DNA of 37,091 nt, from IMG/VR virus record IMGVR_UViG_3300049783_001518, positions 1 to 37,091 of that record. One strand, written 5' to 3'. The position numbers were made by a program, and so were the translations under genes. The stretch comes from a virus. Below, one piece after another: positions 2,998 through 12,305 of this stretch; position 1 is the first letter of the stretch, and each line of letters starts with the position of its first letter. Under the pieces are notes generated by a model. It searched no databases and was not told the DNA's origin. It saw only the letters and a program-made list of their open reading frames with translations.

Positions 2998-5241
2998 ATG
3001 AGCAAAAACGTATTAATTGTTGAACACAATCCAAATTCATTAGAATATCTTAATGAGAATGTAAGTGTGAAAGCAAATGGTGGTAAGTATCTTCTTGGTG
3101 GTAAGTTCACAGAATTCGATGTAAAAAATCGTAATGATAGAGTTTATACTTGGAATAAATTTAAACCTGCGTTAACTGAACTTAACGAAAGGATTACTCA
3201 AATTGGTGTTTTTGGTGAATTTGATCACCCTGATACCTTTGATACATCTTTAAAAAGTGCTTCCCATATGGTAAAAGAGGCTTTCTATGATGAGAGTTCT
3301 AACAGCATACAAGGGAAGATACAATTATTAACTACATCTTGGGGCAAGGAAGCAAGATCCTTAGTAGATGATGAGTGTCCATTATTTGTTTCATCAAGAG
3401 CGGCGGGAGTTACCGAAGCGAATGGTGAAGTGTCATTAAAAAAATTATTCACATATGACATTGTTGCAGATCCAGGATTTGCATCTGCTCGTATGGAATC
3501 AATTAATGAATCAATGGGTTATTCACCTGATACTAATTTTCGAATTTATGAAATCGGAGATGAGTCAAAAATAAACGAATTATTTGAAATGAATAAAGAC
3601 GATCTAATAACAAAGCAACAATTATCTGAATACTCAGAGCATTTAGTTGAGCAGATTGCTTCCACTAAGAGAAAAGTGAACGAAGCAATGAAGAAAGGTA
3701 ATTTAGAGCCTAAGAAAATGGAAGAGTTATTATCTTTCTATGAAAATAGCCAAAATGATTTCAGTAAAATTACTGAATATTTAAATTACTTAGCTGAAAG
3801 TTTACAACATGTAGTTGTAGAAAACAAAGCATTAAAAAAATCTAACGCTAAGTTGGGTAAAACAACAGAAAAATTAATCAAACATAATGATTATTTAGCT
3901 GAGAATTTAGAAAAAAATATTGAATATTCTGAATATTTAGCTGAGAACGTTGATAAGAATATTGAATATTCTGAATATTTAGCTGAGAACGTTGATAAAT
4001 CAATTCAATATGGTGAATATATTGCTGAGAACGTTGATAGATCTATCGACTACTCTGAATATATCGCTGAAAATTTAGATAAATCTATTGGATTTACTGA
4101 TTATTTATCAGAGAATCTTAATAAATCTATTGAATACACTGAGTACATCGCAGAAAATGTTGATACTAATATCGCATACTCTGAGTACATAGCTGAACAT
4201 CTTGATGATGGTATAGCTTACACGGATTATATCGCTGAGCAAGTTGATAAATCTATTGGTTATTCAAAAATGATTGCAGAAAAATTAAACGAAACAAAAG
4301 TGAACGAAGGTTTCATGGTTGGGGAAGATGATTTCCAATTCCCAATGCCAAATGCAGCAGGGATTGAAGAAGTTGAAGAAGAAGAAGAAGAAGTACCACA
4401 ATTTGACGACAATGGTGAATTGATTGATCAGGTAGATCATGAATTAACTGATGGACTTGAAGGTGAAGAAGATGCTAACTGTCATGTAGTATGTGATGGT
4501 GATGAAGAAGGCGGAGAACCAACAGAAGATGATATCTTAGAACCAGGTGATGAATTAATCGATGATGAGGAAAGCATCGAAGAAACACCAGGATTAGAGG
4601 ACACTGAATTAATTACAGATGATGAAGAACTTGAAGAAAAGTTTTTAGAAGAATCAGTTGAATCAAAAGAGGATTGTGACTGTAATGAAGATGATGAGGA
4701 TTGTGACTGTAATAAAAATAAAGAAACTGACTTATCAATGTCAATTGATAAATTAATAGAAGAAGCTAAAAAACGAAAAGCTTCTGAAACAAACGAACAC
4801 CATTTCTTAAAATTCTTGAACAAAAAACAGATAGATGCGTTCTATGGTTTGGAACAAGATGATCAAGAGGTAGTAGTTGCCCATATAAACGAAAAGGGTA
4901 AATATTATTCAACTAATGATGTATTGAAACTTGTCAACGAAGCGTTGAAAAGTAGAGAAGAATCACTAGAGGCTCGTTTGCTTCGACTAATGCCTGATAC
5001 CCTTAACGAACGTTGGGAGAATATTTCTGAGGCTGCTAAGAATTCAATTCTTAGTCAATCGAAATTACATCCATCAGCGAATTGGAATGAGGATACAATC
5101 GAGCATTTTTGGTTAACTCGTAAATTCCCAATAGTTAACGAAAACCGCGAATTAATTGCAAAAGAAGATAAATTAATCCAAGAGGATAAATTAACTAATG
5201 ATGCTTTTAATGGAATTATGGAAAAATTCAATAGAATTTAA
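2998..5241 (+). CDS. Prohead core protease fused to scaffold (T4 gp21 + gp22-like)
   Basis: The N-terminal part (about residues 25-190) resembles T4 gp21 prohead protease: NRNDRVY, GEFDHP with a likely catalytic His77 (T4 GELNHP), and VSSRA with a likely catalytic Ser132 or Ser133 (T4 VSSRG). The rest is scaffold-like: a coiled-coil region, ten 14-residue repeats (about 296-435), a very acidic stretch containing DCDCNEDDEDCDC, and a helical C-terminal domain. In T4 the protease and scaffold are separate genes. The sequence carries many [ILV]NE tripeptides, e.g. YLNE-N at residue 20, KVNE-A, KINE-L, KLNE-T, KVNE-G and IVNE-N, which I infer are self-cleavage sites. The start at 2998 (MSKNVLIVE) is preferred to 2926 because the putative promoter lies between them. 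Predicted 747 aa. Confidence 0.88.
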   Translation: MSKNVLIVEHNPNSLEYLNENVSVKANGGKYLLGGKFTEFDVKNRNDRVYTWNKFKPALTELNERITQIGVFGEFDHPDTFDTSLKSASHMVKEAFYDESSNSIQGKIQLLTTSWGKEARSLVDDECPLFVSSRAAGVTEANGEVSLKKLFTYDIVADPGFASARMESINESMGYSPDTNFRIYEIGDESKINELFEMNKDDLITKQQLSEYSEHLVEQIASTKRKVNEAMKKGNLEPKKMEELLSFYENSQNDFSKITEYLNYLAESLQHVVVENKALKKSNAKLGKTTEKLIKHNDYLAENLEKNIEYSEYLAENVDKNIEYSEYLAENVDKSIQYGEYIAENVDRSIDYSEYIAENLDKSIGFTDYLSENLNKSIEYTEYIAENVDTNIAYSEYIAEHLDDGIAYTDYIAEQVDKSIGYSKMIAEKLNETKVNEGFMVGEDDFQFPMPNAAGIEEVEEEEEEVPQFDDNGELIDQVDHELTDGLEGEEDANCHVVCDGDEEGGEPTEDDILEPGDELIDDEESIEETPGLEDTELITDDEELEEKFLEESVESKEDCDCNEDDEDCDCNKNKETDLSMSIDKLIEEAKKRKASETNEHHFLKFLNKKQIDAFYGLEQDDQEVVVAHINEKGKYYSTNDVLKLVNEALKSREESLEARLLRLMPDTLNERWENISEAAKNSILSQSKLHPSANWNEDTIEHFWLTRKFPIVNENRELIAKEDKLIQEDKLTNDAFNGIMEKFNRI
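3883..4302 (+). repeat. Ten 42-bp repeats (14-aa YSEYIAENVDKSIE units)
   Basis: Ten consecutive in-frame units of exactly 14 residues, consensus YSEYIAENVDKSIE, lie in the scaffold part of the protease/scaffold protein. Two neighbouring copies around 3930-4000 are nearly identical at DNA level and others have drifted. The spacing of Tyr/Ile/Leu/Val residues suggests a long helical rod or coiled coil. Unit number may set core length, but that is inference. Confidence 0.9.
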
Positions 5242-10462: not shown

Positions 10463-10807
10463 ATGAAATACATTAAAAAGTTTAATGAAAATATCGCAGA
10501 TGATATTCTTGATAAGAATAAAACATTAAAGGATCTGAAAGATAATGGATTAATATACACTGTAGGAGCAGTTAAAAGATATTTAAAAGATCCACAAAAT
10601 AAATGGAATGTAGAACTCATGCCATTCCCTGAGAATCTAATGATTCTTAATATTCTTATAGGTGGGAAAATAGGTCAATATCATTTTAAAAAATGTGTGA
10701 AAAGTAGAAATACTTTGGATGAATGGAATTGGATTTCTAAAATTAAAAAGGAAGATTTAGATAGTTTCCCTATTCCTGATGAAGTATATAAAGATATAGT
10801 AGGATAA
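10463..10807 (+). CDS. Candidate internal head protein, 114 aa
   Basis: The N-terminus MKYIKKFNENIADD resembles the T4 capsid targeting sequence of internal proteins (MKTYQEFIAEA): a short basic/aromatic leader, with a possible prohead-protease cut after F-N-E. The rest is soluble and mixed alpha/beta (e.g. NVELMPFPENLMILNILIGG) without a recognised family. Packaging in the head is inferred only from this leader. It stands alone between a minus operon and the tmRNA. Confidence 0.6.
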   Translation: MKYIKKFNENIADDILDKNKTLKDLKDNGLIYTVGAVKRYLKDPQNKWNVELMPFPENLMILNILIGGKIGQYHFKKCVKSRNTLDEWNWISKIKKEDLDSFPIPDEVYKDIVG

Positions 10808-10822
10808 TATTATAAAATAATC

Positions 10823-10830
10823 TATATTTG
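10823..10830 (+). promoter_or_regulatory. Bacteroidetes-type -7 element before the tmRNA (TATATTTG)
   Basis: TATATTTG on the plus strand overlaps the left edge of the TTGGAAAAA element at 10828. The tmRNA may therefore have both an early host-like promoter and a late phage promoter. Confidence 0.35.
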
Positions 10831-10862
10831 GAAAAACTTTATTATATTTTTATTATATATAA
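10828..10862 (+). promoter_or_regulatory. Putative strong late promoter, tmRNA gene
   Basis: TTGGAAAAA, an AT-rich spacer, then TATATA (10856-10861). The distance from the second T of TTGG to the box is 27 bases, identical to the elements before the protease/scaffold and capsid genes. The mature tmRNA 5' end lies 22 bases past the box, leaving a short precursor leader. Confidence 0.5.
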
Positions 10863-10882
10863 CAAAGAAAGCATAAACAAAT

Positions 10883-11245
10883 GGGGGTAATTGGCATAGA
10901 CCGTTATCGATTTGGAATTGTAAGCAAGTATCGGATTGTCTATTAAAGTGCCCGATTAATAAATTAACAGATATTTTTTAAACGACAACGAAACAATTGG
11001 CGTATTAGACTTTTTTAACTCTACGGAGGTAAATGAGGGAGAACTTTTACAAGTAGTCTAATTAGAAAAACACTTCAAAACCGAGTTCATTAGCGGGATA
11101 TCTCTTGAAACTGATTTCTTTGTTTAGAATCAACAGTTAAAAAATGAATCTAAAATAGGATGTTTATACCGAAAATATAAAATATACTTGTAGAAAGCTA
11201 TTTTAAACATAATTGGGACGGGATTCTCGGATATCCCTACCTCCA
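10883..11245 (+). ncRNA. ssrA: Transfer-messenger RNA (tmRNA)
   Basis: The 5' end GGGGGTA (10883-10889) pairs with TACCTCC (11238-11244) to form a 7-bp tRNA-like acceptor stem with one G-U pair. A D-like region (ATTGGCATAGACC) follows, then the conserved tmRNA-like TGTAAGCAAGTA. CAAGTAT there pairs with ATACTTG in the 3' part, forming the long P2 helix. Near the 3' end come CTTGTAGAAAGC, GGGAC, and a T-arm GGGAT/ATCCC. Length 363 nt is normal for tmRNA. The RNA rescues stalled ribosomes and tags their products. Oddities: an 8-base T-loop (TCTCGGAT) instead of TTCGANN; CCA is not encoded (A is followed by CG); and the tag frame does not end in ALAA. A second tmRNA-like 3' end lies at 12029. 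Confidence 0.85.
10999..11061 (+). other. Probable tmRNA tag reading frame
   Basis: Bacteroidetes tags usually begin with a GGC resume codon. Taking GGC at 10999, the frame runs G-V-L-D-F-F-N-S and on to E-L-L-Q-V-V, then TAA (11059-11061), 20 codons in all. It lacks the normal ALAA ending. In another frame a short ending QLAY before TAG is possible. The resume codon is a guess from position and family habit. Confidence 0.35.
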
Positions 11246-12028
11246 CGAATAATTAGGTATCATATAAATATATGATACCTTTTTTACTTGAGAAGAATAG
11301 ATTTTCTACTTGTCTCAGGCACTCCAATTTATCTTTTAAATAAAATTCTTCTTTAACTCTTATTAATAAAAAATTATTATTCTCACAATATTCATTCATT
11401 AACTTATCTTTAAATTGTTTTTTCTCTAATTGATTATGTATATCTTTAAAATGCCATATACCATCATATTCGAGGGATATTTTTAAATCATCAACCCAAA
11501 GATCTCTGACTAATATCTCATCTTTATATTTTAATCCACCACCTGTTTTCCATGTGATATTAGGGTGATTATTTTTGAAATGATCCACTATCTCTCTTTC
11601 TCCCTTAGATGTGTAAAACCTCTTCCTATTTAATTGTCTTTTTCTGAATGATTTATTATCTTTCCATAATTTTTTAATAGACATAGATGTATTTTTTGAT
11701 CTTTGATCATTTACTTCTTTCGACCATACACGAGAATTGGCACAACTTCGAGAACAGAAATTTTTTTCTTTTTTCTTCCCCTCACGATAAACTATATCAA
11801 CTACATTATCACAATTTTCTTTATAACAAACTACACTTTCATAAATTCGGATACCATGTTTCGTATTATGTCTTTTCTGTAATTCCTTTCTCATATTCTT
11901 CAGTCCTTCTTCTGAATATTGAGTATCTTTGTGCTTCCATCGTATATGATTAGCGTATAATGAATTATTTTCAAATTCTTCTTTACATATTTTACATACT
12001 TTCATATAGTATATAGTAAAATATAATA
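11246..12028. mobile_element. Inferred endonuclease-carrying insertion at the tmRNA 3' end
   Basis: The segment between the tmRNA 3' end (11245) and the displaced 3' end (12029) holds only the endonuclease gene. Both flanks share ATCCC followed by TACCTCCAC, as expected when an element inserts at a tmRNA 3' end and supplies or keeps a second copy. No integrase is present, so homing or recombination rather than site-specific integration is more likely. Borders are approximate. Confidence 0.5.
11253..12005 (-). CDS. Zinc-finger PD-(D/E)XK (Vsr-like) endonuclease, probable homing type
   Basis: A 250-aa protein. The N-terminus is a C2H2 finger (Cys4, Cys7, His20, His25). A second metal-binding cluster follows (CYKENC and CSRSC, about residues 60-95). 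The C-terminal half looks like the Vsr/DUF559-type PD-(D/E)XK nuclease fold: GEREIVDHFKNN, then VRDLWVDDLKISLEYDGIWH with the acidic residues expected for metal binding. This architecture is common in phage homing endonucleases. The gene lies on the opposite strand, wedged between the tmRNA 3' end and a second tmRNA-like 3' end, so its cutting site is plausibly in the tmRNA T-arm region. It has no close neighbours on its strand; expression may be from AT-rich DNA at 12006-12028. Confidence 0.75.
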   Translation of the reverse strand: MKVCKICKEEFENNSLYANHIRWKHKDTQYSEEGLKNMRKELQKRHNTKHGIRIYESVVCYKENCDNVVDIVYREGKKKEKNFCSRSCANSRVWSKEVNDQRSKNTSMSIKKLWKDNKSFRKRQLNRKRFYTSKGEREIVDHFKNNHPNITWKTGGGLKYKDEILVRDLWVDDLKISLEYDGIWHFKDIHNQLEKKQFKDKLMNEYCENNNFLLIRVKEEFYLKDKLECLRQVENLFFSSKKGIIYLYDT

Positions 12029-12053
12029 GGTTCGAATCCCAATACCTCCACCA
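12029..12053 (+). repeat. Displaced tmRNA-like 3' end (T-loop, acceptor strand, CCA)
   Basis: It reads GGTTCGAATCCCAA, then TACCTCC-A-CCA: a normal T-loop TTCGAAT, the T-stem 3' strand, an acceptor 3' strand that would pair with the tmRNA 5' GGGGGTA, and an encoded CCA. There is no tRNA body upstream. A terminator follows 11 bases later, so this looks like the original tmRNA end cut off by the insertion. Confidence 0.7.
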
Positions 12054-12064
12054 CTAACTAAAAA

Positions 12065-12092
12065 ATCCGAAACATTGTTTCGGATTTTTTTA
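12065..12092. terminator. Bidirectional rho-independent terminator
   Basis: ATCCGAAAC - ATT - GTTTCGGAT (9-bp stem), with an A-run before and a T-run after. On the plus strand it would end the original tmRNA transcript; on the minus strand it ends the operon whose last gene stops at 12093. Confidence 0.88.
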
Positions 12093-12305
12093 TTATAATA
12101 AGTTTTCTTTCATAAAATCATAAAATTTTTCTCTCAATTCCAACCTAATACGCTCTCGGTTCATATGATCTCCTGCAGTACTTAGACTTGGTTCTACATG
12201 AGCAACACCCCTTATCATTTTCACCGCATTTAATATCACCTCAACATCATCTTCCCTGTAATCTTTATCCAATGTTACTGTAAATCCTTTTATTCTATCT
12301 GTCAT
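12093..12305 (-). CDS. Conserved small phage protein, 70 aa
   Basis: The sequence KGFTVTLDKDYREDDVEVILNAVKMIRGVAHVEP resembles a small protein I recall in many T4-like and other phages; its function is not known. The beta-alpha-beta pattern suggests a ferredoxin-like fold. It is the last gene of the operon starting at 14567 and lies right beside the terminator. Confidence 0.75.
   Translation of the reverse strand: MTDRIKGFTVTLDKDYREDDVEVILNAVKMIRGVAHVEPSLSTAGDHMNRERIRLELREKFYDFMKENLL

Follow-up and report, generated by a model that had tools for sequence, protein, structure and literature searches.

A nuclease gene inserted near the 3' end of a phage tmRNA gene, with a replacement end and the displaced original downstream

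Why would a phage tmRNA (ribosome-rescue RNA) gene that looks complete be followed, 784 bp further on, by a second RNA 3' end that pairs equally well with its acceptor strand? The question arose from a sequence-only reading of IMG/VR record IMGVR_UViG_3300049783_001518, of which positions 1 to 37,091 were analysed (the whole 37,091-bp stretch is called the window here) and which carries a T4-type Gp23 major capsid gene. That reading had described a tmRNA with an abnormal 8-base T-loop and no encoded CCA, a downstream piece with a normal T-loop, a CCA and a terminator, and only an opposite-strand zinc-finger/PD-(D/E)XK endonuclease gene between the two, and each of these observations was confirmed. 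The best answer, held with good but not complete confidence, is that a small free-standing homing-endonuclease element inserted in the T-arm, brought a replacement 3' end with it and pushed the original end about 800 bases downstream. Relatives of the same nuclease sit at the ends of tmRNA and alanine-tRNA genes in dozens of other phages.

The first step was to establish that the tmRNA is real, since neither ARAGORN nor a default Rfam scan reported it. A permissive Rfam search matched RF00023 end to end at 10883-11248 (28.9 bits, E 2e-9), which is below the gathering score of 47 and marks a divergent member, with a 7-bp acceptor including G3-U70, a T-arm and a tag frame, but without the canonical 7-nt TTCRANT T-loop. 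That departure was not taken as exclusive, as it is also seen in phage tmRNAs with no nuclease gene of this family (HEG) beside them. Support came from L105, a 270,756-bp phage contig (L numbers denote the viral contigs and loci compared here) with an 82% identical capsid protein, whose tmRNA is above the Rfam cut-off (59.3 bits) and is also called by ARAGORN. It matches window 10827-11205 at 70% DNA identity and encodes a homologous tag in the same frame and with the same motifs (window NDNETIGVLDFFNSTEVNEGELLQVV, L105 VVSEKIDVLDALDSTESVQDGELVLAV, each followed by a stop). The window tag is unusually long (26 residues or more) and ends LLQVV rather than LAA, while that of L105 ends VLAV.

The acceptor strand of the second 3' end pairs 7/7 with the 5' strand of the tmRNA, and the full pattern is expected about 7e-7 times in the window by chance and occurs once. 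The features of the locus are collected in the table.

Table. Features of the tmRNA locus in window coordinates, with the evidence for each.
Position	Strand	Feature	Support
10883-11219	+	tmRNA body: acceptor 5' strand GGGGGTA (10883-10889), D-arm/P2, mRNA-like region and pseudoknot region, up to the conserved GGGAC before the T-stem	RF00023 match; similarity to L105 tmRNA
10981-11061	+	Tag reading frame (resume codon uncertain)	Translation; L105 tag
11220-11245	+	Resident (element-supplied) 3' end: T-stem GGGAT/ATCCC, 8-nt loop TCTCGGAT (11225-11232), acceptor TACCTCC (11238-11244), A 11245, reading ACGA after the acceptor; no CCA	RF00023 match; acceptor pairing; no similarity to the L105 3' end
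11256-11285	+	Intrinsic terminator of the resident tmRNA (10-bp stem, AAAT loop, T6), within the last codons (GIIYLYDT) of the opposite-strand endonuclease gene	Sequence inspection
11253-12005	-	Homing-endonuclease-like gene, 250 aa: N-terminal Cys/His zinc-finger module and C-terminal Vsr-like nuclease (predicted)	Invariant residues; AlphaFold2 model and Foldseek; relative L008 passes Pfam DUF559
12006-12030		AT-rich leader of the endonuclease gene and right junction of the insertion (about 12026-12030)	Similarity to L105 resumes at GGTTCGA
12029-12053	+	Displaced original 3' end: GG TTCGAAT CCCAA TACCTCC ACCA	7/7 pairs with 10883-10889; aligns with L105 tmRNA 3' end
12060-12091	+	Original tmRNA terminator (inverted repeat with a T run), now also at the 3' end of the convergent gene 12093-12305(-)	Aligns with the L105 tmRNA terminator

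Only the opposite-strand ORF lies between the two ends, and the description of its product as a zinc-finger/PD-(D/E)XK protein was right in kind. In an alignment of 21 homologues the invariant residues were C4 C7 H20 and C60 C65 C84 C88, of zinc-binding type, and S133 E136 D168 E179 D181 G182 W184 H185 D200 N210 R216, the conserved acidic and His residues E136 D168 E179 D181 H185 fitting a Vsr/EDxHD/PD-(D/E)XK nuclease. An AlphaFold2 model (pLDDT 90.2) found the Vsr endonuclease 1cw0 as its best Foldseek match (probability 1.00, TMt 0.60, E 5.8e-3), and among the relatives L008 alone scored above the cut-off for Pfam DUF559. A point that the sequence-only reading had not noticed is that the terminator of the resident tmRNA is the antisense of the last codons of this ORF, only a few bases separating the tmRNA from the ORF, so the replacement end and the endonuclease gene are physically one unit.

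It might be supposed that the segment is instead an intron in the T-loop, with the precursor spliced so that the 5' part joins 12031-12053, as group I introns do sit in the T-loops of related HEG-linked tmRNAs and of bacterial tmRNAs (PMC11915505) and the displaced T-loop is canonical. This was judged very unlikely, as no RF00028 match was found at E<=10 in 10700-12300 and almost all of the insert is opposite-strand ORF. In addition, the resident piece has its own 5-bp T-stem, 7-bp acceptor and terminator, and TTGGG, which would be needed to pair with CCCAA, is not at the joint.

Comparison with a related phage lacking the endonuclease, which had been set as a test of the insertion beforehand, was made with L105, in which the gene is absent at the same RNA gene. 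Its tmRNA lies beside the same NIF-phosphatase gene and runs straight into GAGGG-TTCGACT-CCCTC-CATCTCC-ACTCC and a terminator. When window 12026-12110 was compared with that end plus terminator, 12029-12098 aligned at score 50, which none of 2000 dinucleotide shuffles reached (mean 17.7, maximum 31), while the resident end scored 18, the shuffle mean, and joining the two flanks of the insert raised the alignment from 188 to 214. Among 23 phage RNA 3' ends tested L105 was the best match, but L008 followed at 43 through its terminator, making this good rather than overwhelming evidence. It also rests on one reasonably close empty site, about 70% identical in the tmRNA, since exact DNA searches for the 5' end and the core of the window tmRNA found nothing beyond the L105 contig, and empty sites for L016/L022 and L040, sought by DNA pattern, were not found. 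As the 5' strand of the resident T-stem no longer matches the displaced T-stem, the left junction can be placed only at about 11213-11226. These comparisons also bear on the possibility that the downstream piece is a remnant of an unrelated tRNA gene, for example tRNA-Ala, with the endonuclease gene merely sitting between two RNA genes. The family does occur at tRNA-Ala genes, and CTCC is common to alanine-type ends, so that only three acceptor pairs are really diagnostic. Yet there is no tRNA body upstream and no tRNA in the window, the acceptor matches 7/7, and the similarity to the L105 tmRNA 3' end and terminator is contiguous, so this reading was considered unlikely.

The nuclease proved to belong to a recurrent family. 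Searches of viral contigs found about 60 further loci, forming 41 clusters at 70% identity including the window and LR756501, while none was found in bacterial genomes. By a count of the Rfam and ARAGORN results, 24 clusters lie next to confirmed tmRNAs (window, L004, L005, L007-L010, L012, L013, L015-L017, L021, L023, L024, L032-L035, L185, L195, L197, L202, L210) and 7 next to tRNA-Ala (L040, L043, L045, L188, L201, L203, L205). L006, L019, L022, L037, L039 and L186 show tmRNA-like or tRNA-like ends without a confirmed gene, and L036, L044, L049 and L213 are others. The inverted gene orientation seen in the window is rare in the family, being shared with L007, L019 and L024, and this counts against the explanation given above. 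In L007 a 111-nt tmRNA-like RNA (3739-3849, minus strand) above the Rfam cut-off (50.8 bits) has no apparent tag frame and faces an endonuclease of this family, resembling the CDS-less tmRNA reported for phage DS6A (PMC11915505).

An orphan alanine-type 3' end (TTCRANTC-N7-CTCCAC, at least 10 of 13) lies 8-40 nt upstream of the HEG start codon in 20/41 clusters and in 0/370 other ORFs (p 5.5e-23). In L010, L045, L185, L188, L009 and L012 the relic end is followed by a shared promoter-like string (AATATATAAAATAAA or TATAAATA) immediately before the endonuclease gene. The corresponding motif downstream of the HEG was not significant at the loosest score (2/41 versus 5/370, p 0.15) and only marginally so at stricter ones (p 0.027 and 0.0097), and for displaced ends acceptor pairing in individual loci was relied upon instead.

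By this measure two kinds of extra 3' end could be told apart. Ends after the HEG pair 7/7 with the acceptor of the local gene in L040 (a tRNA-Ala, displaced TAGCTCC), L202, L016 and the window, with L043 (6/7) as the exception. Ends before the HEG often do not (L040 4/7, L043 5/7 or fewer and 4/7 by one count, L013 and L023 5/7, L017 6/7), although L021 does at 7/7. It is inferred that the former are local originals and the latter relics carried along from earlier hosts. Besides the window, three loci (a tRNA-Ala, a tmRNA and an intron-bearing tmRNA) show the same order of restored end, HEG and displaced end, and L040 is a full replicate in a tRNA-Ala gene: restored end with an odd T-loop, terminator, relic, HEG, displaced end, terminator. 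These arrangements weigh on a further alternative, that the two ends arose by unequal recombination or drift, as a tandem 3'-end duplication with T-loop divergence, and that the endonuclease gene invaded the spacer later. In its favor, odd T-loops occur in HEG-free relatives, and in several loci (L017, L021, L023) a relic end lies between tmRNA and HEG with no displaced end after it. However, the displaced end abuts the HEG stop codon in L040 and L043 (+3 nt) and in L016, the resident terminator in the window is part of the HEG coding sequence, and orphan ends are associated with the HEG in 20/41 clusters versus 0/370 other ORFs, leaving this alternative improbable.

The interpretation offered by the sequence-only reading was thus partly supported. 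Its proposal that the endonuclease element inserted at the tmRNA 3' end, supplied its own variant end and displaced the original is borne out by L105 and by the recurrence of the architecture at other tmRNA and tRNA-Ala genes. Its suggestion that the variant T-loop might protect the resident copy from cutting remains possible but weak, and a special role for this loop is not supported. HEG-free L167 has the 8-nt loop AGTCGGAG, the same as HEG-linked L004, and other tmRNAs with no endonuclease of this family beside them (L113 15472-15810, L110, L087, L100, L155) have further non-canonical loops (GGCGGTA, AGCAGTA, GGCAGTA with 6-bp stems), most of these tmRNAs being missed by Rfam. Conversely, many HEG-linked tmRNAs have canonical loops (L008, L013, L017, L023, L195, L202). 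Five HEG-adjacent loci (L005, L016, L039, L185, L186) carry a group I intron in or at the tmRNA T-loop. Its remark that such insertion by a homing-type element without an integrase would be unusual holds only in part, given SegB and the fungal mitochondrial elements discussed below.

What the comparisons establish is the insertion itself, the displaced original 3' end and terminator, the replacement end that completes the tmRNA, the recurrence of the family at tmRNA and tRNA-Ala 3' ends and, from modelling, the predicted Vsr-like nuclease fold. The rest is inference: that the zinc-finger/Vsr-like protein would cut uninterrupted alanine-type T-loop/acceptor DNA of a co-infecting HEG-free phage, and that repair from the HEG-bearing allele would copy the endonuclease gene together with a working 3' end, so that the RNA gene survives and the site is disrupted. 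In the window copy the endonuclease gene is inverted and its 3' coding end doubles as the tmRNA terminator. The preference for tmRNA and tRNA-Ala would fit their shared alanine-type CTCCA ends. T-loop DNA is a plausible target because SegB, a free-standing GIY-YIG enzyme of the T4/T6 tRNA region (PMC13096335, PMC2988022), cuts inside tRNA genes with the motif RAWTSGAAC (PMC13096335), here read as the reverse complement of a T-loop, GTTCSAWTY. SegB, however, is inserted between tRNA genes, and no displaced or restored RNA end was found described for it.

The closest mechanistic parallel is provided by the mobile ORF (mORF) gene hybrids of fungal mitochondria (Allomyces atp6; Glomus atp6, atp9, cox2, nad3; PMC3630166), in which an HEG inserts in a gene with a foreign C-terminus and displaces the native end downstream, the native end still matching close relatives while the inserted one does not. 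The window behaves likewise against L105, but the same logic here acts on a structured RNA (tmRNA, tRNA-Ala) in phages, through a zinc-finger/Vsr-like nuclease rather than on protein-coding genes in mitochondria. The intron-bearing loci recall the collaborative homing of F-CphI (PMC6083498), a free-standing HEG beside a gene whose group I intron blocks self-cutting, although there the target is psbA and the enzyme has an Endo VII motif, and the window has a replacement end in place of an intron. Group I introns with HEGs in tmRNA T-loops (PMC11915505) occupy the same subsite of the same RNA, but those are LAGLIDADG HEGs inside the intron, whereas here there is no ribozyme and the HEG lies outside introns. 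Integrase islands at tRNA/tmRNA 3' ends also leave a restored end and a displaced 3' fragment, yet there is no integrase in the ~800-bp insert and the two ends share only TACCTCCAC, not an identical att repeat. Literature searches, confined to open-licence papers, found no description of a phage tmRNA-targeting free-standing HEG, so a prior description cannot be excluded.

If this explanation is right, it would show that homing endonucleases can parasitise a structured RNA gene by replacing its 3' end without an intron or integrase, link tmRNA and tRNA-Ala through the DNA of their shared alanine-acceptor end, and offer a concrete selective pressure for the odd T-loops and T-loop introns of phage tmRNAs. 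A more far-reaching reading, tentative and rather less likely than not, is that of a natural cleave-and-rescue family. One zinc-finger module, fused to either Vsr-like or HNH nucleases, would read the T-loop/acceptor DNA that tmRNA and tRNA-Ala share because both must be charged with alanine, and each element would ship a recoded, working RNA 3' end or be paired with a T-loop group I intron. This pressure may drive the non-canonical T-loops, and possibly the permuted genes, of phage tmRNAs. At tRNA-Ala or intron-bearing tmRNA-like loci (L039, L040, L045, L186, L188) the same N-terminal module (ANHxRWxHK) is fused to a different, HNH-like nuclease domain, suggesting that the module is the targeting part. 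Endonucleases of the family also abut permuted (two-piece) tmRNA genes in phages (L009, L010, L012, L015, L024, L033), with a relic alanine-type 3' end upstream of the gene in L009, L010 and L012. Finally, a weaker endonuclease-family hit (about 43 bits) lies directly downstream of the major capsid gene in several relatives (L108-L113, for example L110:11773-12633); L113, counted above among the HEG-free phages with odd loops, carries such a hit just after its capsid gene.
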